Assembly: GCF_003955735.1 (NCBI RefSeq)
Contig: NZ_CP034464.1
Span: 3,162,001 to 3,226,000, forward strand
Direction: 5' to 3'
DNA from: Undibacterium parvum
GTDB lineage: Bacteria; Pseudomonadota; Gammaproteobacteria; Burkholderiales; Burkholderiaceae_D
Length of the DNA stretch: 64,000 nt
The position numbers and the translations under genes were made by a program. Below are positions 1 to 61,771 of this stretch, one piece after another (within the stretch, counting starts at the first letter, position 1; every line of letters starts with the position of its first letter). The notes under the pieces were generated by a model. It was given only the letters and a program-made list of their open reading frames with translations, made no database searches and was not told where the DNA came from.

Positions 1-1
1 C

Positions 2-1249
2 AGTCTGGTGCTCGCTTTCGTCCTCATGGCCTTGATCTGGCAAATACTGCTCAATAGTCCGCGCTATTTCAAGCTCAATATGGAACATTTTTCGCAGATA
101 GCGACCGATGTCTTGCCGGCCTCCGGTGTTTCTAAGGAGCGCCAATTAGTGACGCTAAAACGTTGGGGGACGTGGATGGATTCCGATCTCTCGCTGTATG
201 CGCCAGACGGAACCTTGCTGAACTCGACAAAAAGCGATGCGCCAGCGCGCGTTCCGGATAATGTTAAACAAGGCTGGTTCTTTGGGTTTCCTTTTAGCGT
301 GATCGGCCACTTGTCGGATCAACGCTGGCTGCTCATGCAGAGTAATCGCGTCTTTTTTGCTCCGACTTTAGGACAAGTTCTACTGGCGCTGTTGGTGGCA
401 TTGGCACTGGCGCTTGGCTCCTACCCGATTGTCCGGCGTTTGACCAAGCGACTGGAGCATTTGCAAGAGAGCGTCCATGCCTTGGGACAGGGAGCGTTGG
501 CGACCCGGGTGGCGGTCGAAGGGGATGACGAAGTGGCGCATTTAGCGATGAGTTTTAACCAATCGGCAGCGCGTATCGAGGCCTTGATGGCGGCGCAAAA
601 ATCTTTGTTGGCGAACGCCTCGCACGAATTGCGCTCGCCGCTGACGCGCTTGCGCATGGCGGTAGAGTTGATGCAAGAGCAGGCTGCGCCTGCCATCCGG
701 CTAGAGCTGAGCCGCAATATCAACGAGTTGGATCAGCTGATAGAGGAGATCTTATTGAGCAGCCGCCTGGAGGCGAACATGGCGAATCCGCACACCAATG
801 AGGAGCTCGATCTGACCGGTTTACTGGCCGAAGAGTGCGCGCTGACGGATGCCTTGTTAACGATACAGGTTCAGCACGGAGCCGCTGAGGGGGGCGCGTT
901 ATTGCAAGGTGATCCGAAATTGCTCAGGAGGCTATTGCGTAATCTGCTGGAAAATGCCCAGCGTTACGGTGGCACTGCGGCGCCCGAAGTGTTACTGCTG
1001 ATCAGCCCACAACAGCTGCAAGTAGATGTTTGTGATCGCGGTGCCGGGATCCCCCTGGAGCAGCGCGAGCGTATTTTTGAGGCTTTTTATCGCGTGCCTG
1101 GTGCCAGCGAAAGCCATGGCGGTGTCGGGCTAGGCCTGAGTCTGGTCAGACAAATCGCACAGCGACATGGCGGTCAGGTGCAATGCCTGGCGGGTGAAGG
1201 CGGCGGCAGTTGTTTTAGAGTAATCTTACCTCGGGCCGTAAGACTTTAG
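2..1249 (+). CDS. Sensor histidine kinase (C-terminal part, truncated by window start)
   Basis: This is an inner-membrane two-component sensor kinase that autophosphorylates on histidine and passes the phosphate to a response regulator, presumably encoded just outside the window. The frame is open to the window edge, so the N-terminus is missing. Numbering from the first GTG at base 8, a transmembrane stretch at about 120-140 is followed by a HAMP-like linker (about 140-195). The HisKA H-box HELRSPLTRLR carries phospho-acceptor His206. The HATPase domain shows the N-box LLRNLLENAQRYGG, the G1 box DRGAGI, an F-box (IFEAFYR) and the G2 box GGVGLGL. The layout resembles CpxA/RstB-type EnvZ-class kinases, but the ligand cannot be told. 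The kinase assignment is secure. Confidence 0.93.
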   Translation, partial: SLVLAFVLMALIWQILLNSPRYFKLNMEHFSQIATDVLPASGVSKERQLVTLKRWGTWMDSDLSLYAPDGTLLNSTKSDAPARVPDNVKQGWFFGFPFSVIGHLSDQRWLLMQSNRVFFAPTLGQVLLALLVALALALGSYPIVRRLTKRLEHLQESVHALGQGALATRVAVEGDDEVAHLAMSFNQSAARIEALMAAQKSLLANASHELRSPLTRLRMAVELMQEQAAPAIRLELSRNINELDQLIEEILLSSRLEANMANPHTNEELDLTGLLAEECALTDALLTIQVQHGAAEGGALLQGDPKLLRRLLRNLLENAQRYGGTAAPEVLLLISPQQLQVDVCDRGAGIPLEQRERIFEAFYRVPGASESHGGVGLGLSLVRQIAQRHGGQVQCLAGEGGGSCFRVILPRAVRL

Positions 1250-1270
1250 CTGCTGCGCTGAAGCTTTAAT

Positions 1271-1351
1271 GCAGGCAGGCTCAGTGCGCATATACCATGC
1301 GCCTCTCCAGCCTGCCTAGCCTGCAGGCCGCATGGGATATGCGCGTGGGCG
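1271..1351. repeat. Dispersed palindromic repeat, copy 1
   Basis: Left arm GCGCATATACCATGCGC (1286-1302) and right arm CCGCATGGGATATGCGC (1328-1344) are near-complementary around a C/T-rich loop containing CTCTCCAGCCTGCC. The same element recurs at 7188, 9797, 31191, 51771, 60828 and 61687. It fills the gap between the kinase and the DUF1272 gene and can fold into a stable hairpin in RNA or single-stranded DNA. Confidence 0.8.
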
Positions 1352-1549
1352 GCACTGCCATTTCAAAATCAATCTACTCGTCTTCGCACCCGTCGTCAGC
1401 TATCGAGATCCGACGAGGTGTGGCGAAGTGTGGCAATGTATGGCCAGATATGACCGTAATCTGTCGCCTTCCTGCCTTGTGACAGACCAGCGCTCTGCTA
1501 AACTTGAGCTCGTCTACCTTCACTGTAACCCTCTCACGAAAGGTCTCCC

Positions 1550-1858
1550 ATGCTTGAACTACGCCCTAGCTGCGAACATTGCGATAAGCTTCTGCCACCG
1601 AATTCAAGCGAAGCGCGAATATGCAGTTACGAATGTACATTTTGCGCCGATTGCGTAGCGCAAGTCTTGCTCAATGTCTGCCCTAATTGTGGCGGCGGCT
1701 TCGTGGCGCGCCCGATACGGCCGTCACATAACTGGAAAGGCGATAATTTTCTAGGTAAAGATGGTGCCGGTACGCGTCGTGTCTTCAAGCCCGTGGATGC
1801 GAGCGCGCACGCAGCCCTAGTCGCCAGCCTAAATGGTTTGGAACCGCAAGATCGCTAG
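1550..1858 (+). CDS. DUF1272 domain-containing small cysteine-rich protein
   Basis: A 102-residue protein beginning MLELRPSCEHCDKLLP, typical of DUF1272. Cysteines occur as CxxC (residues 8-11) and then CSYECTFCADC, plus a second CPNC knuckle followed by GGGFVARP. These pairs suggest one or two bound zinc ions, though the family has no established function. It is usually a stand-alone cytoplasmic gene, as here, lying between a repeat and a regulator gene. An AGGTCTCCC sequence before the ATG gives a weak ribosome binding site. Family assignment is by motif recognition and is fairly sure; the role is unknown. Confidence 0.85.
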   Translation: MLELRPSCEHCDKLLPPNSSEARICSYECTFCADCVAQVLLNVCPNCGGGFVARPIRPSHNWKGDNFLGKDGAGTRRVFKPVDASAHAALVASLNGLEPQDR

Positions 1859-3138: not shown

Positions 3139-4257
3139 ATGCATTCTGTTATTCAAAACGCCAAACGATTAATTATTAAAGTAGGTTCCTCGTTGGTTAC
3201 CAATGACGGTAAAGGCTTGGACCGGGTCGCGATCGAGAAATGGGCGGCCCAGATCGCCCAGCTGCGCCAGATGGGTAAGGAAGTGGTGCTGGTCAGTTCC
3301 GGTGCCATCGCCGAAGGGCGCCAGCGCCTCGGGTTTGAGAAACGCCCGACCGGTATCCATGAATTACAAGCCTGCGCGGCCGTTGGACAAATGGGCTTGG
3401 CGCAGATTTACGAAACCAGTTTTCGTGCGCATGGTTTGGGGACCGCACAAATTTTGCTGACGCACGCCGATCTGGCCGACCGCGAACGCTATCTGAACGC
3501 CCGCTCCACCTTAGTGACGCTGCTCGGTTTTGGCATCGTCCCTGTGATTAACGAAAACGACACCGTGGTGACCGATGAGATTAAATTCGGCGACAACGAT
3601 ACCCTCGGCGCCTTGGTAGCGAATCTGATCGAGGCCGATGCCCTGATTATTTTGACCGACCAAAAAGGCCTGTACACGGCTGATCCGCGTAAAGATCCCA
3701 ATGCCCAGTTTGTGCATGAAGCCAGAGCCGGCGATCCGGCGCTGGAAGCGATGGCCGGTGGTGCTGGTTCCAGTCTGGGTAGCGGTGGCATGCTGACCAA
3801 GATTCTGGCCGCTAAACGTGGTGCCAGCTCTGGTACCCACACCGTGATCGCTTGGGGCCGCGAAGACAATGTGCTGGTGCGCCTGGCGCAAGGTGAGGCA
3901 ATCGGCACGCAATTGGTGTCGCAAATGGCACCACTGGCGGCGCGCAAGCAATGGATGGCTGATCATTTGCAAACGGCAGGACAGATCGTGCTGGATGCCG
4001 GTGCGGTGCAAAAACTCACGGCCGAAGGCAAGTCTTTACTCCCTATCGGCGTGTTGGAAGTAAAGGGCGAATTTGGCCGCGGTGCCGTGATTACCTGCTT
4101 CAATGAAGCGGGCGTGGCAATCGCGCGTGGCCTGAGTAATTACACCAGCAGCGATGCGCGCCGCATCAAGCGGCATGCCTCTTCCGAAATACTGGGAATT
4201 TTGGGTTTCGTGGTCGAGCCGGAGTTGATACACAGAGATAATCTGGTACTGCTGTAA
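3139..4257 (+). CDS. proB: Glutamate 5-kinase
   Basis: Phosphorylates L-glutamate with ATP, the first and feedback-inhibited step of proline biosynthesis, in the cytoplasm. The 372-residue protein (from 3139) has the amino-acid kinase fold: [18 protein letters not shown] near the N-terminus, the substrate loop [35 protein letters not shown] and [17 protein letters not shown]-terminal PUA domain of about 75 residues follows. Length matches full ProB. The longer frame from GTG 3100 has no family support. In many Burkholderiales proB follows obgE; here it stands alone and faces the arginine-to-proline catabolic genes across a shared terminator. Confidence 0.96.
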
Positions 4258-6715: not shown

Positions 6716-7171
6716 ATGGATAACTACGACAAGAATATTTTGAAGCATCTGCAAGAAGACGGGCGCATGAGTAATTTGCTGCTGGCCGAGCGCATCCACC
6801 TGTCGGCTCCGCAGACTCTGCGCCGGGTCCGTAGTTTGGAAGAGCAGGGCGTAATACGCGGCTATGTGGCGCAGGTTTCGGCCGAAGCTATAGGCTTGGC
6901 GGTGATGGCCTTTGTCAGTCTGTCGCTAGACCGCGAGCAGTTTCGTAATGTGCGCGAGGTGGAGCGCAACATCATGGCTTTCCCCGACATCATAGAGTGT
7001 CACACCATCTCCGGCGATTTCGATTATCTGCTGAAGGTAGTCGCGCCCGACTTAAAAAGCCTGTCGCAGTTTTTGACCGATAGCCTGATGCAAGTACCGG
7101 GTGTCGCCACCCTGCGCTCTATGATCTGCATGGAAGAGATTAAACCGGTGAGCAGTTTGCCTATCGTCTAA
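6716..7171 (+). CDS. Lrp/AsnC-family transcriptional regulator
   Basis: A 151-residue feast/famine regulator. The N-terminal winged helix (DNYDKNILKHLQEDGRMSNLLLAERIHLSAPQTLRRVRSLEEQGVIRGY) is typical, and the C-terminal RAM/ligand domain contains the expected turn FPDIIECHTISGDFDYLLKV. It is transcribed away from ocd-rocF, a layout seen for regulators that sense an amino acid and switch on its breakdown. Ornithine or arginine is the probable effector, by context only. It could also act on distant genes as a global Lrp. Confidence 0.92.
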   Translation: MDNYDKNILKHLQEDGRMSNLLLAERIHLSAPQTLRRVRSLEEQGVIRGYVAQVSAEAIGLAVMAFVSLSLDREQFRNVREVERNIMAFPDIIECHTISGDFDYLLKVVAPDLKSLSQFLTDSLMQVPGVATLRSMICMEEIKPVSSLPIV

Positions 7172-7187
7172 AATTTTTAAAGTCATC

Positions 7188-7264
7188 CCTGCCAACGCGC
7201 ATATCCCATGCGCTTCTCCAAGCACACTGGCCTGCAGCCCGCATGGGATATGCGCGCTGGCAGG
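7188..7264. repeat. Dispersed palindromic repeat, copy 2 (best preserved)
   Basis: Arms of 25 bp (7188-7212 and 7240-7264) pair with one mismatch. They begin CCTGCCAACGCGCATATCCC and end GGATATGCGCGCTGGCAGG, with a 27-bp loop starting CTTCTCCAAGCAC. The stem is flanked on the right by a run of eight Gs. It lies directly after the lrp stop codon and could also act as a transcription-blocking or mRNA-stabilising hairpin. Confidence 0.85.
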
Positions 7265-7301
7265 GGGGGGGCGTTGAAATATCAATAGAGGCAAGCGCCA
7301 T

Positions 7302-9722: not shown

Positions 9723-9796
9723 ACGCTAATGCTGGTAACAGCATGGCTTTGCCCACTCTAAAGCGCAAGCATACCAGCCAAAAGCTGAATAGCCGC

Positions 9797-9875
9797 CCTG
9801 CCAAGGCGCATATACCATGCGCTTCTTCAAGCACCTAGGCCTGCGAGCCGCATAGAATATGCGCGCTGGCAGGGG
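9797..9875. repeat. Dispersed palindromic repeat, copy 3
   Basis: CCTGCCAAGGCGCATATACC at 9797 and GAATATGCGCGCTGGCAGG at 9856 form the outer stem. The loop CTTCTTCAAGCACCTAGGCCTGC closely matches that of copy 2. The inner part of the right arm (CATAGAAT) no longer pairs perfectly with the left (ATACCATG), giving a bulge. It lies 75 bp after the glycosyltransferase stop codon, same orientation as copies 1 and 2. Confidence 0.82.
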
Positions 9876-10017
9876 AGGTCGTTTATATCTTGCAATTCTT
9901 AGTCGTTTTAGCAATGTCGAATATTTTTACACTCTTGCGATTTGTGGAGTGCATCCTAAGCCTAGTTGCGCAATTAAGTATTTGATTTTACTTAGCTAAT
10001 ATTTTACATGCATGATT

Positions 10018-10231: not shown

Positions 10232-11077
10232 ATGAAAATGTTAAAATCAAAAATCTTAGCCGGGCTCGTGCTCGCGGCTTCCTGTCTTAGCGCCCATGCG
10301 AGTTATATCGTTGGCGGAGCAACTAATTCTCTCATATCTGATAGTGGGGGATGGGCTTGGGATGGCGCCTATATGGCTGGCTTTCGTGGTGCACTGGAAA
10401 ATACTAGTAATTTTGGTCCGGCTGGTATCGTCAATCGCACTATTTCCACCACCAATCTGAACGCGGTGAATAGCGGCACTCTGGCTGGTGTGAATATGTT
10501 TGTCGGAACTTGGGTATCGGATGCGCAAGGTGCAGGTTTTTCTGCCGCAATGATGAGTTTTTTCTTGGGCGGTGGTGATCTCTTTTTACTACAAGACGAT
10601 TCCAGTCACGACATCTTGGGAACCACGTTGGGCATCAGTACCACGGCCAGCGACGGCTCAGATTCAAATGGCAGTGCCCCGCTATTTAGTGGCCCCTTCG
10701 GCAACGCCAGTAACGTCAAACAATTCTACAATGTCGGGCAATTAGATGAAACCGCAGTTCTGGCAAAACATGGCCACGTTGGTGGTAGAAACGCCAGCAA
10801 TCAAGTGACCTCTGCATATTGGCATGCGGGTGAATATGCCGCTGGTGCTGGGTCTTTGTTTATCATCGCTGACATCGATATGATTGCAACAACCAGCGCG
10901 TGCGGAAGTCCGGTGTGCGGGGCAAGTTATGCGCCGCTGAACGACAATGGTATCTATGCTTTAAATACTTTTAGCTTCTTGCAAGCGAATAGCGGTAGCA
11001 AAGTGCCAGAGCCAGGCAGCATTGCTTTATTTGGTGGCGCCTTGGTGTTGCTGGCCTTACGCCGCCGCGCCATGTAA
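10232..11077 (+). CDS. PEP-CTERM sorting domain protein (secreted/cell-surface)
   Basis: A 281-residue exported protein. An N-terminal Sec signal (MKMLKSKILAGLVLAASCLSA, cut near AHA-S) is followed by a soluble domain. At the C-terminus (about 258-281) is the sorting signal VPEPGSIALFGG, a hydrophobic helix, and the basic end RRRAM, which exosortase EpsH recognises and cuts. The middle (about 85-140) has GVNMFVGTWVSD and an alternating strand/helix run ending FLGGGDLFLLQDD, reminiscent of a GATase-like Rossmann fold, but this is a weak impression. GGGAA precedes the ATG by 6 bases. The exosortase gene is not in the window. A sigma-54-type promoter lies upstream. Confidence 0.87.
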   Translation: MKMLKSKILAGLVLAASCLSAHASYIVGGATNSLISDSGGWAWDGAYMAGFRGALENTSNFGPAGIVNRTISTTNLNAVNSGTLAGVNMFVGTWVSDAQGAGFSAAMMSFFLGGGDLFLLQDDSSHDILGTTLGISTTASDGSDSNGSAPLFSGPFGNASNVKQFYNVGQLDETAVLAKHGHVGGRNASNQVTSAYWHAGEYAAGAGSLFIIADIDMIATTSACGSPVCGASYAPLNDNGIYALNTFSFLQANSGSKVPEPGSIALFGGALVLLALRRRAM

Positions 11078-11101
11078 TTTGTTGGTGCTAGTTTGACTCG
11101 C

Positions 11102-11139
11102 AAAATGGGCGCACTCTGTGAATTGGCGCCCATTTTTTA
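11102..11139. terminator. Bidirectional terminator between the PEP-CTERM gene and benE
   Basis: AAAATGGGCGC and GCGCCCATTTTTT pair around a 13-base loop; T-tract on the plus-strand side, A-tract on the other. It serves the PEP-CTERM gene and probably the convergent benE transcript. Confidence 0.85.
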
Positions 11140-11155
11140 TGCCTCTCTTGTTCTG

Positions 11156-12430
11156 TTAACTAGCTTTTGGTCGCAGCACAAAATAACTCAGTAAACCTAT
11201 ACCTATGCCCCAACAGGCTGAGCCCAATCCCAGCACAGTGACGTTGGAGGCGGTAACGATGAAGGTCAATAAAGCCGCTTCTCTTTCGCTAGCTTCCTGC
11301 ATGGCATTGACTAGGCCATTCTGGATCGCGCCTAGTAAGGCCAGCCCTGCAACGGTGCCCACCAGTGCCGGTGGCAAGTGCATGAAGCTGTCGGTCAAGG
11401 AACCTGCAAAGCTGCCGATTAGCAGATAAAATGCACCGCAGGCGAGGCCCGCCAGCCAGCGTTTTTCGGGCTGGTGATGGGCTTCCGGGCCGGTGCAGAT
11501 GGCGGCCGTGATCGCTGCCAGGTTAATGCCATGTGAGCCGAACGGCGCAGTGATCAGGCTGGCCAGTCCAGTGGTACTGATCAGTGTATCGACCGGAGCG
11601 TTATAGTCGGCGGCACGCAGTACCGCGACCCCCGGTACCTGTTGGCCAGTGAGGCAAAGTACCGCCAGCGGCAGGCCTATGCTAATGATGGCGCTCAGTG
11701 AAAACTCTGGAGTGGTCCAGACTGGCTGGGTTAAGGAAAATTGCATGACACTACCGCTGGCGCTGTTGACCGCGCTGCCGCCCCAGCCCAAACCCAGCCA
11801 CAGGGCGATTCCCAGTAACAAGGTCAGGACGATGGCATAGCGTGCCGAACTGCGCTTGAAGAGTAGATAGCCGACAAACATCGCCGCCACCAGTAAAGGC
11901 GCACCAGCCACAGAACTGCGCGCGCCAGCAAAAACTTCGACCCCAAACTTAAACAAGATACCGGCCAACATGGCGGCGCACAGACTCTTTGGAATCAGGA
12001 CCATCAGGCGTTCGAATACGCCGCTCAGGCTGATGAGCAACATCACGGCTGCTGCAAACAGATAGGCAGCGATGGCCTGGTTATACGGTATTGTGGCTAA
12101 GGCGCTTACCAGCAGAGCAGCGCCCGGTGTATTCCAGGCGCAGATCACGGGGATCTTGTGACGCCAGCTCAGCCAGACACAGCAAACACCGGCCCCGATA
12201 GAGATGGCCCAAACCCAGGACGCCATTTGCGCCTGGCTCAGCCCGGCCGTTTGACCTGCCTGCAAAATGAGTAGCATAGGCCCGGTGTAGGAAATGAGCA
12301 CTGCGATGAAACCGGCCAGCACCGCCGGAAATACATCGTGGGCCTGACGCCATGTTATTCGACTTAGCAAAGAACTGTCCGCAAGAGTGCCGGCAGGCTG
12401 TGAGAGGGGGATAGGTTTGGAAGTAGTCAT
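11156..12430 (-). CDS. benE: Benzoate/H+ symporter family (BenE) transporter
   Basis: A 424-residue polytopic membrane protein of the BenE family (NCS2-like fold), about 12 hydrophobic helices. Typical stretches include FPAVLAGFIAVLISYTGP near the N-terminus, ICAWNTPGAALL, and PFGSHGINLAAITAAICTGPEAH in the pore region. The family includes BenE of Acinetobacter and E. coli YdcO; the true substrate of most members is untested, and no benzoate catabolic genes are near. The ATG at 12430 (MTTSKPIPL) is chosen over 12448 because it leaves room for the divergent regulator's promoter. The adjacent MocR-type gene is probably its regulator. Confidence 0.87.
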   Translation of the reverse strand: MTTSKPIPLSQPAGTLADSSLLSRITWRQAHDVFPAVLAGFIAVLISYTGPMLLILQAGQTAGLSQAQMASWVWAISIGAGVCCVWLSWRHKIPVICAWNTPGAALLVSALATIPYNQAIAAYLFAAAVMLLISLSGVFERLMVLIPKSLCAAMLAGILFKFGVEVFAGARSSVAGAPLLVAAMFVGYLLFKRSSARYAIVLTLLLGIALWLGLGWGGSAVNSASGSVMQFSLTQPVWTTPEFSLSAIISIGLPLAVLCLTGQQVPGVAVLRAADYNAPVDTLISTTGLASLITAPFGSHGINLAAITAAICTGPEAHHQPEKRWLAGLACGAFYLLIGSFAGSLTDSFMHLPPALVGTVAGLALLGAIQNGLVNAMQEASEREAALLTFIVTASNVTVLGLGSACWGIGIGLLSYFVLRPKAS

Positions 12431-14167: not shown

Positions 14168-17100
14168 ATGACGCTACAGTTAGCGAGCTACCTTAGTTTT
14201 TTTCAGCATTTTGGGCTGATTAGCCTGGTGGCTCTGCCGTTTTTGGCGAGTTTGATTGCGGCTTTTTTGCCTAGCAATGCGCGCAATGCAGAATCGACTT
14301 TGGCGGGACTGGTCGCGCTATTTTGCGTGGTGCAGGCGGCACTGTATTTTCCTGAAGTGGCCGCTGGTGGCGTGATACGGCAAGAATTTAGCTGGCTACC
14401 CTCGTTGGGCTTGAATTTTGTACTGCGCATGGATGGCTTTGCCTGGATGTTCTCTATGCTGGTGCTGGGGATGGGCGCCTTGGTGGTGCTGTATGCACGC
14501 TATTACATGTCGCCATCCGATCCGGTGCCACGGTTTTTCTCTTTCCTGCTAGCCTTCATGGGCGCCATGAGTGGCGTGGTGTTGTCGGGTAACCTGGTGC
14601 AACTGGTGCTGTTCTGGGAACTCACCAGCCTGTTTTCGTTTTTGTTGATTGGTTACTGGTACCACCGCATGGATGCACGGCGCGGTGCGCGCATGGCCTT
14701 GACGGTGACAGGCGCCGGCGGCCTGTGCCTGCTGGCCGGGGTACTGGTGTTGGGGCATATCGTCGGCAGTTATGATCTCGATGTGGTGCTGGCCTCAGGT
14801 GCGCTGGTGCGCGCCCATCCGCTCTATGTCAGCGCCTTGGTGCTGGTGCTGCTGGGCGCACTGACCAAGAGTGCACAATTTCCGTTTCACTTCTGGTTAC
14901 CGAACGCGATGGCAGCGCCGACTCCGGTCTCGGCTTATCTGCACTCTGCCACCATGGTGAAGGCAGGCGTGTTCTTGCTGGCACGCTTGTGGCCGGTGCT
15001 GGCCGGTAGTGAAGAATGGTTTTGGATCGTGACCGGCTCGGGCTTGATTACCTTATTGCTAGGTGGCTTTGCGGCGATTTTTCAACAAGACTTGAAGGGC
15101 GTGCTGGCTTATTCGACCATCTCGCACCTGGGCTTGATCACGACATTATTAGGTTTGAATAGTCCGTTGGCCGCGGTGGCCGCAGTGTTTCACATCATGA
15201 ACCACGCCACTTTTAAAGCTTCTTTATTTATGGCGGTCGGCATCATCGACCACGAAACCGGCACGCGTGACATCCGTCGTCTGAGTGGATTGATGCGTAG
15301 TATGCCAGTTACCGCCACGCTGGCGATGGTGGCTAGCGCGGCCATGGCTGGAGTGCCCTTGCTCAACGGTTTTATTTCCAAAGAAATGTTTTTTACCGAG
15401 GCGGTCTTCGTCACTAGCGTGCCCTGGTTTCAAGTGCTGTTGCCGGCTGTGGCAGTGTTGGCGGGCATTTTTAGTGTGGTGTACTCACTGCGTTTTACGG
15501 TCGATGTGTTCTTTGGTCCGGATACCAGCGCGCAATTGCCGCGCCATCCGCATGAGCCGCCGCATTGGATGCGGGTGCCGGTAGAGTTGCTGGTGCTGGC
15601 ATGTTTTGTGGTTGGTACTTTGCCGCAATGGACTATGCAGTCTGTGCTGGAAACCGCTGCCGCACCGGTAGTGGGGGGGCAACTGCCAGACTTTGATCTG
15701 GCGCTGTGGCACGGCTTCAATACGCCCTTAATCATGAGTTTGCTTGCGCTGTTTGGCGGGATTGCTTTGTACTGCGCACTACGTGGAGCACTGCGGCGTG
15801 AGCGTTTTAGTCGCACGCCGTTATTGGGTATTTTAAATGGGCAAAAATTGTTTCAGTCTAGCTTGGCCGCTTTGACCATGGGCGCGCGTCAGCTGTTACG
15901 ACTACTCTCTAGCCGGCGTTTGCAGACGCAGTTATTGCTGTTGGTGAGCGTGCTACTGATTGCCGCAACGCTGGCCACGCAAGGGCAGGACATCCAAGCA
16001 GGTGAGCGCACGCTGTTGCCGTTTTCACCTATCTTCGCGCTGCTCTGGCTGATCGGTGGCAGTGCGGCACTGGCCTGTGTCTGGGCCAGCAAATTTCACA
16101 GATTGACGGCGCTGGCATTGATGGGTGTCGCAGGACTTTGTACCGTGATTACTTTTGCCTGGTTCTCGGCACCGGATCTGGCATTGACCCAGTTATCGGT
16201 AGAGACTGTCACGACGGTGTTGATCTTGCTAGGATTGCGCTGGTTACCCAAGCGTATCGCCGCTTTGGAGGCGCTTGAAGTAAACTCTGAGAGTTTAACT
16301 TCCAGGGCCAGGCGCATGGGCCGACGCGGGCGCGACCTGCTGCTGGCGCTGATGGCGGGCGCTGGCATGACGTTGCTGTCGTATGCCATGATGAGTCGCG
16401 ATTTTCCGCAAAGTATTTCGCCGTTTTTCCTGGAACGTGCTTTACCCGAGGGCTTCGGCACCAATGTCGTCAATGTCATGCTGGTTGATTTTCGTGGCCT
16501 TGATACTCTGGGTGAAATCTCGGTGCTGGGCATCGTGGCATTGACAGTGTATGCGCTGCTGCGACGCTTTCGTCCGGCACCAGAGAGTAAGCAACTACCT
16601 TTGCAGCAGCGCCTGTTAGCCGCTGATATCGCCACCGATCTGGTGCATGCCAATACTGCGACCGATACAGCCAGTGGTTATCTGCTGGTGCCTGCGGTGC
16701 TGGTGCGCTTGCTGCTGCCGATCTCGGTGCTAATTGCCGTACATTTATTTATGCGTGGTCACAATCAACCGGGTGGCGGTTTTGTCGCAGGATTGGTTTT
16801 ATCTACCGCATTTATTTTGCAATACATAGTCTCAGGCACTTTGTGGGTAGAGGCAAATATACGGCTAAGGCCGCAACGCTGGATCGCTTTTGGTTTGCTG
16901 ATGGCAACCACTACCGGGCTGGGTTCTTTTTTCTTCGGCTATCCTTTCCTGACCACCCATACCGCGCATCTGCATTTACCTTGGTTAGGTGAAATCCATA
17001 TCGCCAGCGCCTTGTTTTACGATATAGGCGTGTTTAGTCTGGTGGTGGGGGCGACCTTATTGATACTCACTGCTCTGGGCCATCAGGCGGTGCGCGGTCA

Positions 17101-17194
17101 TCGCGGTAAATTGCGTGCAGCAGAAACAGAAGCAGACGTCGATGCGCAAGTTGATGCGGGCTATCACACACCAACTACCGAAGGGAGCGCCTAA
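14168..17194 (+). CDS. mrpA: Mrp-type Na+/H+ antiporter, fused subunit A/B
   Basis: Largest subunit of the multi-gene Na+(K+)/H+ antiporter, a membrane complex related to respiratory complex I and used for pH and salt homeostasis. The 1008 residues comprise an MrpA part (NuoL-like, about 16 or more helices) with the conserved ion-path glutamate in LVLFWELTSLFSFLLIGYW and lysine in GALTKSAQFPFHFWLP, then HSATMVKAGVFLLARL. A C-terminal MrpB-like domain (from about 830) contains FMRGHNQPGGGFVAGLVLSTAF. A/B fusion is the usual form in many proteobacteria (PhaAB). It heads a six-gene operon with overlapping start/stop codons. Confidence 0.95.
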   Translation: MTLQLASYLSFFQHFGLISLVALPFLASLIAAFLPSNARNAESTLAGLVALFCVVQAALYFPEVAAGGVIRQEFSWLPSLGLNFVLRMDGFAWMFSMLVLGMGALVVLYARYYMSPSDPVPRFFSFLLAFMGAMSGVVLSGNLVQLVLFWELTSLFSFLLIGYWYHRMDARRGARMALTVTGAGGLCLLAGVLVLGHIVGSYDLDVVLASGALVRAHPLYVSALVLVLLGALTKSAQFPFHFWLPNAMAAPTPVSAYLHSATMVKAGVFLLARLWPVLAGSEEWFWIVTGSGLITLLLGGFAAIFQQDLKGVLAYSTISHLGLITTLLGLNSPLAAVAAVFHIMNHATFKASLFMAVGIIDHETGTRDIRRLSGLMRSMPVTATLAMVASAAMAGVPLLNGFISKEMFFTEAVFVTSVPWFQVLLPAVAVLAGIFSVVYSLRFTVDVFFGPDTSAQLPRHPHEPPHWMRVPVELLVLACFVVGTLPQWTMQSVLETAAAPVVGGQLPDFDLALWHGFNTPLIMSLLALFGGIALYCALRGALRRERFSRTPLLGILNGQKLFQSSLAALTMGARQLLRLLSSRRLQTQLLLLVSVLLIAATLATQGQDIQAGERTLLPFSPIFALLWLIGGSAALACVWASKFHRLTALALMGVAGLCTVITFAWFSAPDLALTQLSVETVTTVLILLGLRWLPKRIAALEALEVNSESLTSRARRMGRRGRDLLLALMAGAGMTLLSYAMMSRDFPQSISPFFLERALPEGFGTNVVNVMLVDFRGLDTLGEISVLGIVALTVYALLRRFRPAPESKQLPLQQRLLAADIATDLVHANTATDTASGYLLVPAVLVRLLLPISVLIAVHLFMRGHNQPGGGFVAGLVLSTAFILQYIVSGTLWVEANIRLRPQRWIAFGLLMATTTGLGSFFFGYPFLTTHTAHLHLPWLGEIHIASALFYDIGVFSLVVGATLLILTALGHQAVRGHRGKLRAAETEADVDAQVDAGYHTPTTEGSA

Positions 17195-17565
17195 TGGAAA
17201 TCGTCATGGCCTGTGCCATCGGCCTGCTTACCAGTTGCGGGGTCTGGCTACTACTCAGAGCGCGTACCTATCAAGTCATCATCGGCCTCGCTTTGTTGGG
17301 CTATGCAGTCAACCTGTTCATCTTCAGCATGGGGCGTTTAGCCGTCGATAAAGAACCGGTGCTGGCGGCTGGGGTACCGACCACGCTGCAACATTACATC
17401 GATCCTATGCCGCAGGCCCTGGTGCTGACCGCGATCGTGATCGGTTTTGCCATGACAGCCTTATTTTTGGTGGTGATGCTGGCGCAGCGCGGTTTCTTTG
17501 GCAACGATCATGTGGATGGCACGCCAGATCCAAGTCCGGAACCAGAACCGGAGCAGCAGTCATGA
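17194..17565 (+). CDS. mrpC: Mrp-type Na+/H+ antiporter subunit C
   Basis: A 123-residue NuoK-like subunit with three transmembrane helices, including GVWLLLRARTYQVIIGLALLGYAVNLFIF and ALVLTAIVIGFAMTALFLVVML, the two most conserved helices of MrpC. It ends in a polar Pro/Glu tail (DPSPEPEPEQQS). TAATG overlap with mrpA and a GGGAG ribosome binding site show translational coupling. Confidence 0.94.
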   Translation: MEIVMACAIGLLTSCGVWLLLRARTYQVIIGLALLGYAVNLFIFSMGRLAVDKEPVLAAGVPTTLQHYIDPMPQALVLTAIVIGFAMTALFLVVMLAQRGFFGNDHVDGTPDPSPEPEPEQQS

Positions 17566-19322
17566 TGGCCTTGCTTAATGAATGGGCCTTGATCGCGAAT
17601 GCGGCTTTGATGCCGCATCTGACCATGGCACCTATCCTGGTACCGCTGATCGCTGCCAGTTTATTGTTGATGTTGGGCGAGAAGCGGCATAAACGCAAGG
17701 TCTTGCTGTCGCTGCTGGCCACTGTCTGTAATTTGGCGGTGGCGGTGTTCCTGATGCTCAGCGTGGCAATAGACAAGGCGCAGCCGCAGGGCTTTGGCGT
17801 GTATCTGCCCTCTAACTGGGATGTGCCGTTTGGGATTGTGCTGGTGCTCGATCACTTGTCGGCGCTGATGCTGGTGGTGGCGGGCATAGTCGTCTTACTC
17901 GCCTTGCTATTTTCGGTGGCGCGCTGGCATAAGGCTGGTGCACATTTTCATGTGTTGTTGCAGTTTCAGATCATGGGTTTGAATGGGGCGTTTTTGACCG
18001 GCGATTTGTTCAATCTATTCGTGTTTTTTGAGGTGATGCTGGCCGCTTCGTATGGTTTGCTCTTGCATGGTAGCGGGCCGGCACGGGTCAGGGCAGGACT
18101 ACATTATCTGGGAATTAATCTGGCCGCATCCTCCCTGTTTTTGATAGGCGCGGCCTTGATCTACGGTGTTGCAGGTACTTTGAATATGGCTGATCTGGCA
18201 GCCAAGATACCGACGGTGTTGAGTGCGGATAGGGGCTTACTACACGCCGGTTGCGCTATTCTGGCGGTGGCTTTTTTGGCTAAGGCAGCCTTGTGGCCGC
18301 TGAACTTTTGGCTGGTGCCCGCCTACAGTGCGGCGAGTGCCCCGGCCGCCGCCGTGTTTGCGCTGTTGACCAAGGTCGGGATTTTCGTGCTGTTGCGGCT
18401 TTCTACTTTACTGTTTTCAGCCGAGGCGGGCGCATCGGCTGGCTTTGGTAAGGACTGGCTGCTGTGGGGCGGTATGCTGACGCTGGCCTTCGGCGCTGTC
18501 GGTATGCTCAGTGCGCAAAGACCGGCGCGTCTGGCCGCCTTTGCGGTGATCGTATCGGCTGGTACCTTGATGAGCGTACTCGGTTTTGCCAACCCCGCGC
18601 TGACTGCAGGGGCGCTATATTATTTGCCTAGCTCGACCTTTGCGGTGGCAGCTTTTTTCTTGCTGGCCGAGCTGATGGAGCGCTCACGCAACCCGGATCC
18701 AGCGCTGCAACGCGCGCCAGAAGATGAGGAAGATAAGCTGCCCTTTGCTTTAGGGGAGCAGGATATCGCCTATACAAGTCAACTTGAAAAACAGCACAAT
18801 AGTAATCTTGACGACAATGAAGAACTCTTGGTGGGGCGGGTGATCCCCGCTTCAACGGCTTTATTAGGTCTGGCCTTTGTGTGCTGTAGCGTGTTGCTGG
18901 CAGGCTTGCCGCCGCTGTCTGGTTTTGTCGGAAAATTTGCCATGTTGACTGCGCTATTCCAGAACAGCGATACGGCGCAAACGATAGCACCAGCGGCTTG
19001 GGTATTCTTAAGTCTGCTGATCATCTCAGGTTTATTTGCCTTGATTGCGCTGTCACGCACAGGCATGCGTTTTTTTTGGACGCCGCAAGGACGTCAGGCA
19101 CCAGTGCTCAAGCTGCTAGAGTTTGCGCCTATCATGATCTTGGTGGCAGTGTGCGTGAGCATGACTATACACGCAGAAGCGCTGACCCAATATGCGCGCG
19201 CTACCGCGGCTTTACTGTATCAGCCGCAAGCCTATATTGCCGCTGTACTCAGCACTCAGCCGATACCCACCAAGACCAATGCCGAGCGTTTGCAAGCGGC
19301 ACCTATAGCGGTGAAGCCATGA
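17562..19322 (+). CDS. mrpD: Mrp-type Na+/H+ antiporter subunit D
   Basis: NuoN/NuoM-like ion-translocating subunit, 586 residues, about 14 helices. Conserved sites visible are the glutamate in LFVFFEVMLAASYGLLLHG, the lysine in AFLAKAALWPLNFWLVPAY, and the second lysine in FALLTKVGIFVLLRL. A hydrophilic insert of about 60 residues (around 375-435, acidic, with EDEEDKLPF and DDNEELLVG) lengthens it beyond the roughly 500 residues of Bacillus MrpD; similar inserts occur in proteobacterial PhaD. ATGA overlaps link it to mrpC and mrpE. Confidence 0.95.
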   Translation: MMALLNEWALIANAALMPHLTMAPILVPLIAASLLLMLGEKRHKRKVLLSLLATVCNLAVAVFLMLSVAIDKAQPQGFGVYLPSNWDVPFGIVLVLDHLSALMLVVAGIVVLLALLFSVARWHKAGAHFHVLLQFQIMGLNGAFLTGDLFNLFVFFEVMLAASYGLLLHGSGPARVRAGLHYLGINLAASSLFLIGAALIYGVAGTLNMADLAAKIPTVLSADRGLLHAGCAILAVAFLAKAALWPLNFWLVPAYSAASAPAAAVFALLTKVGIFVLLRLSTLLFSAEAGASAGFGKDWLLWGGMLTLAFGAVGMLSAQRPARLAAFAVIVSAGTLMSVLGFANPALTAGALYYLPSSTFAVAAFFLLAELMERSRNPDPALQRAPEDEEDKLPFALGEQDIAYTSQLEKQHNSNLDDNEELLVGRVIPASTALLGLAFVCCSVLLAGLPPLSGFVGKFAMLTALFQNSDTAQTIAPAAWVFLSLLIISGLFALIALSRTGMRFFWTPQGRQAPVLKLLEFAPIMILVAVCVSMTIHAEALTQYARATAALLYQPQAYIAAVLSTQPIPTKTNAERLQAAPIAVKP

Positions 19323-21930: not shown

Positions 21931-22404
21931 GGGCGGGCTTAAAAGTCTGAGCAGACGCTATTTTAAAGGACTCATCGCGCTGCGACCGAAAAATGCCTAG
22001 CGTTAGCGGGTTTTGTATAAAGAGTTGTTAAGCCAAGTCTAAGCATACGATGTGCTGCTCAAGAGCACAAAACATGCGCATTCGAAGAATAATCAATATA
22101 CTCCCCAATTTTTAGGAGAAAAACCCTCATTTACGCACATGTAATATGCGCATCCGAAAAATACTAGGGTGGAGTATCAATAAGCTGACGGGTATCCAGG
22201 TAAAGCTAGCAAGCTGGAATTTCAATGAGCAGCCAAAATACCTGCTAAGCACGCGAACTCAAAAAACCCAGATTCTTGGGAAATTGAAGGGCGCACAGCG
22301 TTCGCTCTAGATACCGCTAGGGCGCGACATCCCCGCTCGCCACTTCACAACAGGTATGCGGCTCAGATTCGTGCGGCGGCGGCTTCGAGTCCCACCTAAG
22401 CAGC
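21931..22404. other. Intergenic region between dacB and ssrA
   Basis: No gene seen. It contains two similar blocks, ATGCGCATTCGAAGAATA (22074) and ATGCGCATCCGAAAAATAC (22149), each followed by a TACTCCCC- or GGAGTAT-type segment that could pair, giving a loose hairpin. Near 22373 the sequence GCGGCGGCGGCTTCGAGTCC resembles a tRNA T-arm, perhaps the relic of an integration event next to the tmRNA gene. Confidence 0.4.
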
Positions 22405-22454: not shown

Positions 22455-22815
22455 TGGTGGAGACGGCGGGAATCGAACCCGCGTCCAGAAGCACTCTACA
22501 GACAGTTCTACATACTTAGTGCTGTTATTTAATTTAATCTTTACGACGCGAACGCACACGCTGCGCAAAAACGAGTCACCTATTATTTAGTCTTAAGCCA
22601 AGTAACCCGACTTAATACGATTCCCTATAAATGACTCTACTGCTGTTGCCAGCCCGCCCTAGGGAAGAGGCGGTGTAGAGTTAGCAAGCAATTAAGCTGC
22701 TAATGCGTACGAGTTATCGTTTGCAGTTATATATTTCTGATTGTATTTACGAGGTAGTCAGGCCTCGGTATGCCCTGCGCTGCTTTGCAACCCCTGTCGA
22801 AGCCAGGTCGTCCCC
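22455..22815 (-). ncRNA. ssrA: tmRNA (transfer-messenger RNA)
   Basis: About 361 nt. The RNA starts GGGGACGACCUGGCUUCGAC and contains GGGCAUACCGAGG, the conserved betaproteobacterial 5' domain. It ends in the alanine tRNA-like T-arm GGUUCGAUUCCCGCC and an encoded CCA (22455-22457). The tag frame lies at 22692-22724 on the minus strand and reads ANDNSYALAA then UAA. It rescues stalled ribosomes with SmpB and marks the nascent peptide for proteolysis. Ends are set by the acceptor pairing of GGGGACG with the 3' CGUCUCCACCA. Confidence 0.96.
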
Positions 22816-31160: not shown

Positions 31161-31190
31161 GCGCATAGTGTCGCTAACTCAATTTAGTCT

Positions 31191-31250
31191 GCGCAATATC
31201 CATGCGGCTTTGCAGCCATTTTCGTGCCAGAAGGCGCATGGATATTGCGC
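31191..31250. repeat. Dispersed palindromic repeat, copy 4 (variant)
   Basis: GCGCAATATCCATGCG (31191-31206) and CGCATGGATATTGCGC (31235-31250) are perfectly complementary. The arms differ from the usual ones at several paired positions, so changes on one side are matched on the other. Loop orientation (GGCTTTGCAGCC...CCAGAAGGCGC) is inverted relative to copies 1-3. It lies 30 bp after pheA. Confidence 0.75.
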
Positions 31251-31259
31251 AATGGTTTT

Positions 31260-31381
31260 GGGAACTTCTAAAAAACCGTTAATCGGGATGCAGCGCAAGG
31301 CGCAAACCGGAGCAATACGTCGGTATTGCGAGGATTTGCAACGCCGCGATGCGCTCGAGTATGGGTTTTTTAGAAGTTCCC
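31260..31381. repeat. 122-bp inverted-repeat element between pheA and tyrA
   Basis: Perfect 18-bp terminal inverted repeats, GGGAACTTCTAAAAAACC (31260-31277) and GGTTTTTTAGAAGTTCCC (31364-31381). The inside has further self-complementary blocks (GCGCAAGGCGCAAA with TTTGCAACGCCGCG; GCAATAC with GTATTGC). This fits a MITE-like or structured repeat with no coding capacity. The right end followed by TTTTT could also work as a transcription terminator inside the aromatic operon. No second copy is in the window. Confidence 0.8.
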
Positions 31382-51604: not shown

Positions 51605-52121
51605 GAAAGGCTTTCAAAATCGTAAGCATTGATTATGCAATAATTTTGCGTAGGTATGAATGAAAACTATGCGTTTGCAGTTCTGTATGAGCTAACTGAG
51701 CGTGCTGCCTACGCCAAGCTTGGCATAGGGCTTAAAGTTTAGGCTCAAAAGAAATAAAACACGACCACCTCGGAGACGCATATCGGAGACGCATATCCCA
51801 TGCGGCTTAGCGGGCATATGCCTTGGGAAGGCGCATAGAATATGCGCAGTGGCGTACTCGGTTTTTAAAAAATGGAGGCCCTGCTAGCGCTTGATCTGGG
51901 ATGCCGATCAAGCTGGGGGCGGCATTGTACCACTGTCTGTGGGCTTATCAAGGGCGCGCGCACCGCGCTTTAAAATTTCGTCCCTGTGATGCCAATACCA
52001 GTGATTTTGCAGATATTATTACGGTTTTTGATGGCTTCAGCCGCACTATCAGCAGGCATACTCGTCAATAGAATCTGTAGGCTTACGCGCCCACCTAATT
52101 ACAATACGAAGAGGAATTCTC
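51605..52121. other. Intergenic region between marC and the permease
   Basis: 517 bp without a credible gene, holding palindrome copy 5 in the middle. No promoter for the permease was resolved with confidence. GAGGAA at 52109-52114 is the permease ribosome binding site. Confidence 0.4.
51771..51855. repeat. Dispersed palindromic repeat, copy 5 (inverted orientation)
   Basis: Arms GCATATCCCATGCGG (51791-51805) and GCGCATAGAATATGCGC (51831-51847) pair imperfectly. The loop end CTTGGGAAGGCGCAT is the reverse complement of the CTTCTCC-type loop start, so this copy is inverted relative to copies 1-3. Its left flank has a perfect 13-bp tandem duplication, CGGAGACGCATAT (51771-51796). Confidence 0.75.
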
Positions 52122-60657: not shown

Positions 60658-60827
60658 GCGCCGTTTCACTGCTAAACAAAAGAGACTAGATGCTACTGCA
60701 TCGCGCAGCACTACACCAGAGTTTTCCTTAACCCGGCTCAGCTTTTTCGGTCACTTGTTTGGCTCACTTGATTGTGCGCGCGTCGGGCTGAGTGGAGCTG
60801 ATTAAAAAAGAGAATTTTAAAACACGT

Positions 60828-60905
60828 CCTGCCAAGGCGCAGTAGCTATGCGCCTGTTGGCGGCATGCATCCGGTGAGCCGCATAGATACTGCGCCTTGC
60901 GGCAT
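60828..60905. repeat. Dispersed palindromic repeat, copy 6 (compensatory variant)
   Basis: Arms GGCGCAGTAGCTATGCG (60835-60851) and CGCATAGATACTGCGCC (60880-60896) pair with one mismatch. Against the common arms (GCGCATATnCC), several bases have changed on both sides so that pairing is kept. CCTGCCAA flanks the left arm as in copies 2 and 3. Confidence 0.75.
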
Positions 60906-60997
60906 GCCCTTATTAAAACCAATTGAAATGGGCTGCGCTCGCTCTGGGTCAACTGATCTGCTCACACTGCGTTAAGGGTAGACGTATAGGAGAACCC

Positions 60998-61600: not shown

Positions 61601-61686
61601 GTCGCTGCTAACTGAAGATTCGTAACGACTTTTCTGTCAGCCGCCTGCGCTTAACATTCACCATTGGTCAGTTTTCAACTCACCAC

Positions 61687-61771
61687 CCGGCCAGCGCGCA
61701 TATTCCATGCGCTTCTCCGGCCTGCCTGTGCTGTAGCCCGCATGGGATATGCGCCTCCAGCCTGCCTGCTT
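61687..61771. repeat. Dispersed palindromic repeat, copy 7
   Basis: GCGCATATTCCATGCGC (61696-61712) and CGCATGGGATATGCGC (61739-61754) pair with one mismatch, with loop CTTCTCCGGCCTGCC as in copies 1 and 2. It sits between the lipoprotein stop and the Fur box, just upstream of the iron operon. Confidence 0.83.

Follow-up and report, generated by a model that had tools for sequence, protein, structure and literature searches.

The question raised by this locus is what kind of repeat can stand time and again between the genes of a bacterium as a long palindrome, how it was spread and why it is kept. An earlier note on the window, by which is meant here the whole stretch of 64,000 nucleotides analysed from Undibacterium parvum, had described seven palindromic copies, had placed none of them in a gene and had likened them to REP/BIME elements, which are moved by RAYT transposases.

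All seven copies are present close to where they had been reported, with 16-base arms that start at 1286, 7197, 9806, 31191, 51789, 60837 and 61696 and with the starts of the two arms 43 or 44 nt apart in every case. Their density is above chance, as had been claimed: the arm sequence GCGCATATNCCATGCG, with up to two mismatches, is found 11 times in the window (0.37 expected), a number reached by 0 of 100 shuffled sequences, and these matches are the ten arms of five copies and one stray at 22136. Different arm sequences are seen in the copies at 31191 and 60837 (GCGCAATATCCATGCG and GCGCAGTAGCTATGCG, respectively), with the pairing still kept. None of the seven lies inside a gene predicted by our own script, which also bears out the earlier note. 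Its statement that most copies directly follow a stop codon holds for five, which have an arm 25-95 nt past a predicted stop, but not for those at 51789 and 60837, which lie between divergent predicted genes. RNA folding z-scores range from −6.55 to −3.13 in six copies, and the score is just −1.97 for 51773-51863.

Five copies are of one type, designated A. Copy 1 (1270-1360, minus strand) has arms at 1286-1301 and 1329-1344 with 27 nt between them, both exact to the pattern, and scores 77.3 bits with R1, a covariance model trained on dispersed copies without any fabI leader sequence; as this copy is in the training set of R1, it matches by construction. Copy 2 (7181-7271, minus strand, z −6.55) has arms at 7187-7212 and 7240-7265 with a single mismatch, as previously described, which measure 26 bp rather than 25, and its arm starts 15 nt past the stop codon ending at 7171. 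Also on the minus strand are copy 3 (9790-9880; arms 9806-9821 and 9849-9864) and copy 7 (61680-61770; arms 61696-61711 and 61739-61754), while copy 5 (51773-51863, plus strand; arms 51789-51804 and 51832-51847), the weakly folding one between divergent predicted genes, has a portion of its left arm duplicated immediately upstream. Copy 4 (31175-31266, plus strand, z −5.76) represents type B, with a TGCGCAATATCCATGCGGCTT arm and its complement at 44-nt spacing, and copy 6 (60821-60911, minus strand), again with divergent predicted genes on either side, has the arm GCGCAGTAGCTATGCG and a near-complement at 43-nt spacing. At curated thresholds no Rfam family matches the hairpin repeat in the window, where the only match is a tmRNA gene (22455-22815, minus strand).

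The repeat unit comprises ~90 bp of recognisable sequence that form a near-perfect inverted repeat. Type A has the form CCAGC-GCGCATATTCCATGCG-27 nt-CGCATGGAATATGCGC-GCTGG, with weakly conserved T and A columns in its flanks near +75 to +81 and −25 to −17, and in type B the arms, which resemble GCGCA(A/G)TATCCATGCG, are spaced 44 nt apart and the flanks are A/T-rich. The hairpin is layered: an outer stem that changes fast encloses an inner stem, ATGCG/CGCAT, followed by a short bulge, which is asymmetric, and by a small hairpin at the apex. The inner part first extends the stem (SCTT/AAGS), and beyond the bulge comes the apical stem, whose five pairs are each retained by 38 to 54 of the 70 copies from the source genome. 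Since the bulge is asymmetric, the two strands of the repeat can be told apart. A conserved CTTCTCC...GGCCTGC loop, as proposed in the earlier note, is seen in part of the copies, but the inner 27-28 nt are far more variable than the arms and are present in either orientation. Strict calls in 40 stretches of the source genome gave 49 pairs and 8 unpaired arms, the spacing of the 49 pairs being 43 in 40, 44 in six and 41 in three. Across species ATGCG/CGCAT is nearly invariant and the outer arms are species-specific, examples being CACGCA in many copies of genome G025 and TGTCCAATA or GTCCAATA in copies of the G015/G035 type.

The source genome (G000), a single contig of 4,910,324 bases, has 309+326 arm matches with up to two mismatches (2+4 for the reversed pattern); the limit of about 20 copies genome-wide, below which the earlier note would have counted itself refuted, is thereby exceeded many times over. 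In 864 kb sampled as 40 stretches of 20 kb and the window, a script that allowed up to five mismatches per arm and eight in sum found 72 copies, of which two were met again in stretch L047 and removed, leaving 70 distinct copies. Because 11 kb of L047 also belong to the window, this DNA enters both the sampled total and the intergenic bases twice. By extrapolation a representative sample would imply ~400 copies per genome. Per 100 kb there are 3.5 copies in the part closest to the presumed origin and 25 in the single 20-kb stretch farthest from it; most of the chromosome has 6.4 to 9.6. A bias to one replication strand was rejected (37 to 33, with origin and terminus guessed from GC skew), as was depletion at the terminus, suggested by a gap at 1.46-3.0 Mb among the exact matches listed, because sampled stretches in that region carry copies (L060, at 13397, and L064). 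In L064 there are also two arrays of 12-bp tandem repeats of the AGTCAAAAACAG type (3983-4188 and 11013-11266), which lie amid duplicated intergenic DNA holding nine copies of the element.

Placement was scored against genes called by our own script, in G000 and in other species alike. None of the 68 placeable G000 copies lies in a predicted gene, with genes covering 82% of the sequence; the other two are at stretch edges. Convergent, tandem and divergent gaps hold 21, 35 and 12 copies, respectively, and make up 18%, 56% and 26% of intergenic bases. Of the 35 tandem copies 28 are closer to the upstream stop, and their orientation relative to the gene has no clear bias (13 same, 22 opposite). 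Of 48 copies from other species, 19 are in convergent and 21 in tandem gaps, none is in a divergent gap, seven are at edges and one was called in a gene.

Base-pair covariation backs the hairpin, most strongly across the genus. When the 70 G000 copies are aligned, 76.0% of cells pair in the named structure and there are 106 double changes (shuffled mean 77.9), a number matched in 0 of 500 shuffles. Two of five pairing measures for this alignment, the counts of pairs with a double change and of further pair types, are within the shuffle range (204 and 238 of 500 shuffles), and RNAalifold predicts 8 pairs only. The signal is strong on every measure among 50 copies (49 distinct) from other species, with 81.6% of cells paired, double changes in 26 of 33 pairs (6 of 500 shuffles), 232 double-change cells (shuffled mean 91.5; 0 of 500 shuffles as high; 60-106 for slid structures) and a covariation score of 0.382 (0.163 shuffled; at most 0.128 for slid structures). 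These rows are model hits and include five from fabI leaders (L227, L228, L229, L231 and L249); L230, L240, a copy already represented by L255 and the second match in L250 were dropped. Because the model that supplied the rows carries the same structure and so biases them to it, it is on the slid and shuffled controls that this result rests.

At the sensitivity used the family is restricted to Undibacterium. Arms of the exact type, with up to one mismatch, number 261+271 in G000, 119+130 in G006, 67+76 in G014 and 6+2 in G025, with 0 to 3 in the others of 36 same-genus genomes. The exact two-arm pattern was found in 54 stretches among GTDB r220 contigs, all from Undibacterium sp. E14_maxbin.296, a set in which the source genome is possibly not included. 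At E ≤ 0.001 in 43 genomes, with strands counted apart, R1 gave at least 100 matches in each of G000, G014, G006 and G025, 72 in G011, 57 in G017, 12 each in G020 and G035, 11 in G015, 1-5 in eight others and zero in 26. The covariance-model search of related genomes proposed in the earlier note was run at E ≤ 1e-5 and matched 7 of 294 genomes of the family, all Undibacterium, one genus of 44; as 14 candidates per genome were scored, weak copies may escape it. On a single-gene tree with weak forks (29 rows, without G011) presence of the repeat is clustered, requiring 4 changes where shuffles need 7.9 on average and none of 500 needs so few.

Comparison of close species bears on age and movement. 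Copies 2 and 3 are matched by copies in the equivalent positions of G014 and G006; genes there are ~77-85% identical, and the copies contrast with flanking sequence that aligns poorly. For copy 4, G014 has a diverged equivalent in the same position; for copies 6 and 7 none was found at the matching position of that genome. Copy 1 sits in window 1-1644, which is 100% identical to G014 and points to recent transfer. Blocks of 98-100% identity between G000 and G014, surrounded by genes mostly ~76-91% identical, are recent transfers between species, and include window 1-1644 and 16225-18800, L058:11096-16828 and L194. Among 51 equal-length G000 copies the closest pair is 91% identical and the mean between stretches is 61%, so a recent burst is absent from the sample. 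Copies from the same stretch are more alike than those from different stretches, mostly through two clusters, with which local duplication is likewise compatible. A search for empty sites in G000 against G014, G006 and G025 gave no clean empty site and no target duplication, the differences being blocks of gene plus element or degenerate copies; three elements called with a loose pattern (L058 6426, L214 2497 and L282 12566) were judged false by eye. Since neither an enzyme nor a clean empty site nor a target duplication was found, movement of the element is something that we infer. Two further repeats are a MITE-like one of ~105 bp with ends TAGGACTTACGCAAAA...TTTTGCGTAAGTCCTA (L058:5273-5377, L165 and many places in G006, G014 and G025), which in one case in G014 stands between an Lrp-type gene and the hairpin element, and one of 177 bp (L058:3476-3652) with several copies in G014.

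The reality, number, extragenic position and base-pair covariation of the repeat are established, as are its restriction to the genus at the sensitivity used and the homologous hairpin before fabI described below, and the explanation preferred here, to which we would give an even chance, is that of one family of long-hairpin DNA repeats that spread as a folded single-stranded unit and was retained behind genes and in the leader of fabI. By analogy with what is proposed for REPINs, such a unit would have been moved in trans by some machinery, mostly long ago, and the surviving copies would be those at positions where a hairpin downstream of a gene does no harm or is of mild use, while at fabI the hairpin would be kept as a leader element adjoining the ribosome-binding site. 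Against this explanation, tandem copies of other species are closer to the upstream stop in just 11 of 21 cases.

The leader of fabI carries a hairpin homologous to the repeat in a good part of the genus. Of 30 same-genus fabI loci retrieved, 11 have an R1 match in the 5′ leader at E ≤ 5.1e-6 (G006, G017, G000, G014, G001, G012, G020, G025, G062, G027 and G033), with weaker matches in G021 (0.0058) and G019 (0.012), and the leader of G011 also has the hairpin. The weak R1 hits of element-poor genomes are located directly before fabI, and five of the matched leaders (G001, G012, G062, G027 and G017) are the hits that first pointed to this gene; the G000 leader, near 594.7 kb, is outside every sampled stretch. 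The hairpin stops a few bases short of CTGGAG and ATG, and a promoter-like site, TTGCCC-N17-TACAAT, stands upstream of it in four leaders and in others. Folding z-scores against mononucleotide shuffles (40 each) run from −12.0 (G006) through −10.3 (G017) and −5.0 (G000) to 0 (G009), and the remaining same-genus loci have a different hairpin in some cases and none in others. In 11 leaders chosen as model hits from 31 of the genus, without G012 (near-identical to G001), G021, G019 and G007, double changes occur in 12 of 30 pairs (2 of 500 shuffles) and the covariation score is 0.228 vs 0.119. Rfam gave two matches of ~25 bits on six fabI loci, where thresholds are at least 110, and none at threshold. 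The literature covered, with subscription journals mostly outside it, held no description of the repeat or of the fabI leader hairpin in the genus. In G035 and G015 (L238 and L239, before 1501) an element with a core like that of the fabI leader is located directly before what we take, by sight, to be an XdhC-like gene.

A further reading, compatible with the preferred explanation though less likely than not, is that the hairpin of the fabI leader came first and that the dispersed copies descend from it by amplification. The leader copy is present in G001, G012, G062 and G027, genomes with just 1-3 R1 matches in all (strands counted apart), the leader arms of the G006 type and their 44-nt spacing equal those of type B, and in genus g37 the 3′ half of the leader looks similar by eye, though without forming a good hairpin. 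The same pattern would, however, be expected from an early insertion into the fabI leader. Moreover, outside the hairpin the leader sequence is unlike the flanks of dispersed copies (by eye), and the G000 leader is no closer to the dispersed copies (mean identity 0.70) than the latter are among themselves (0.75 over 300 sampled pairs). In its fullest form, which is somewhat doubtful, a structured fabI leader, present in a good part of the genus, would have founded the family when, in one lineage, its folded strand was copied to ~400 sites, most of them behind genes, with the outer arms changing in step in each species; if so, the hairpin of a gene leader was turned into a mobile repeat.

An alternative to spread as a folded unit is that the copies are transcript-end elements, either two-way terminators or stabilisers of mRNA 3′ ends, that are under selection and owe their spread to descent and gene transfer, not to transposition. 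The bias to 3′ ends and the convergent excess in G000, the 48 copies of other species with none in a divergent gap, and the persistence of copies in equivalent positions whose flanks align poorly all fit such a role. Tracts of at least five T in eight beside the hairpin, found on 51% of sides, are slightly over background (36%), but with the stricter limit of at least six T in eight the values are only 19% and 15%. Against such a role, divergent predicted genes flank 12 of the 68 G000 copies, and congeners range from none detected to ~400 copies; we regard it as rather unlikely to account for the family.

The likeness to REP/BIME elements proposed in the earlier note stands in that the copies are dispersed extragenic palindromes, present in hundreds and similar to REP doublets, but the link to RAYT transposases fails as tested. 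A search with PF01797 (Y1 transposase) found three genes in G000, encoding proteins of 231, 171 and 177 aa, the latter two RAYT-like. The RAYT flanked by the same palindrome that had been predicted was not found, as none of the three has an element on both sides within 1.5-kb flanks; one has a single copy ~0.9 kb off with another gene in between. The 231-aa gene has what we take, by sight, to be chemoreceptor-like and glutamate-synthase-like genes as neighbours in G000, G014 and G006. The flanks of the 171- and 177-aa genes hold hairpins of another kind with a GTAG foot (GTAGGGTGGGCA..GCCCAC and GTAGGCTGGGA), and other GTAG-foot hairpins, of several sequences, are found at 9 of 14 RAYT-type loci in ten genomes (two in G000, G014, two in G006, G025, G009, G011 and G029); the hairpin scan listed none at L202, L204, L206 and L207 and was ambiguous at L203. 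Several types of GTAG hairpin accompany RAYT-type genes of the genus (L195, L196, L199, L032 and L033), and some of these genes are broken.

Strict REPINs, that is, REP doublets mobilised in trans by a RAYT since lost or encoded elsewhere in the genome, are a distinctly unlikely identity. The inverted 16-mers at fixed distance, extragenic placement, doublets far in excess of singlets and a long hairpin with compensatory changes are all as described for REPINs (PMC3116915), and Y1 genes are available, with three in G000 and two in G014. The best remaining argument for a link comes from two RAYT-type genes of G006 with an element 155 and 239 bp upstream, among other repeats, which can be read as shared intergenic space; these two genes have GTAG hairpins of a different kind on their own flanks. 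Genomes in which R1 has no match (G009, G010, G060, G016 and G029) also carry RAYT-type genes. Neither GTAG nor CGTC forms a tag beside the arms: among 51 copies, GTAG is present in one in either outer flank and three in the inner part (1, 1 and 6 for the complement), and CGTC in 1 and 2 in the two flanks (5 and 1 for the complement). A tag might be sought in the GAAG (22 of 51) or GGAG (12 of 51) of the inner part next to one arm, but these are paired positions of the stem, unlike the unpaired GTAG-type tag of REPINs. As both tag and transposase were looked for and not found, the repeat is not filed as a REP or REPIN.

Integron-type attC sites or DNA-uptake signals, which some copies clustered between small genes (L058 and L064) might suggest, are very improbable given that attC-type end boxes are absent by eye, that orientation is independent of the gene in tandem gaps, that copies occur in stretches all round the chromosome and that none is in a gene, in contrast to uptake signals. 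An integron-cassette reading was also dropped, since gene directions and orientation vary.

Palindromic repeats with neither tag nor transposase pose a puzzle over both spread and function. Here a single genus spans genomes with no copies detected, with few and with hundreds, together with a homologous fixed copy before fabI, so that source, route and function become testable by comparison of close species, and it is the fabI leader that lifts the family above a mere list of repeats. Among known systems, ERIC (IRU) sequences are 127-bp intergenic repeats of enterobacteria that form a long imperfect palindrome, for which no transposase is known. Compared by description only, the Undibacterium repeat is likewise a long imperfect palindrome between genes for which no transposase was found, and differs in being shorter and having species-specific arms. 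NEMIS (Correia) elements, again compared by description only, are like the Undibacterium repeat in being small, palindromic and near genes, and differ from it in having terminal repeats of ~26 bp around a variable core. CGTC-tagged REPs are palindromic pairs without a dedicated transposase (PMC3733652), and the Undibacterium repeat resembles them in both respects, but it has no CGTC tag and forms one continuous long hairpin. REPINs or REP doublets (BIME-like, GTAG superfamily) share the most features, namely paired inverted 16-mers at rigid spacing, extragenic location, hundreds of copies, a long hairpin, compensatory changes and a bias to 3′ ends. The Undibacterium repeat differs from them in lacking a GTAG tag at its arms and a RAYT flanked by the repeat, in its arm-start distance of 43-44 nt rather than the 71 bp of GI REPINs (PMC3116915), and in an inner stem that is conserved across species while the outer stem changes. 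On this comparison the repeat appears to act most like a REPIN or an ERIC sequence, as a folded extragenic repeat.
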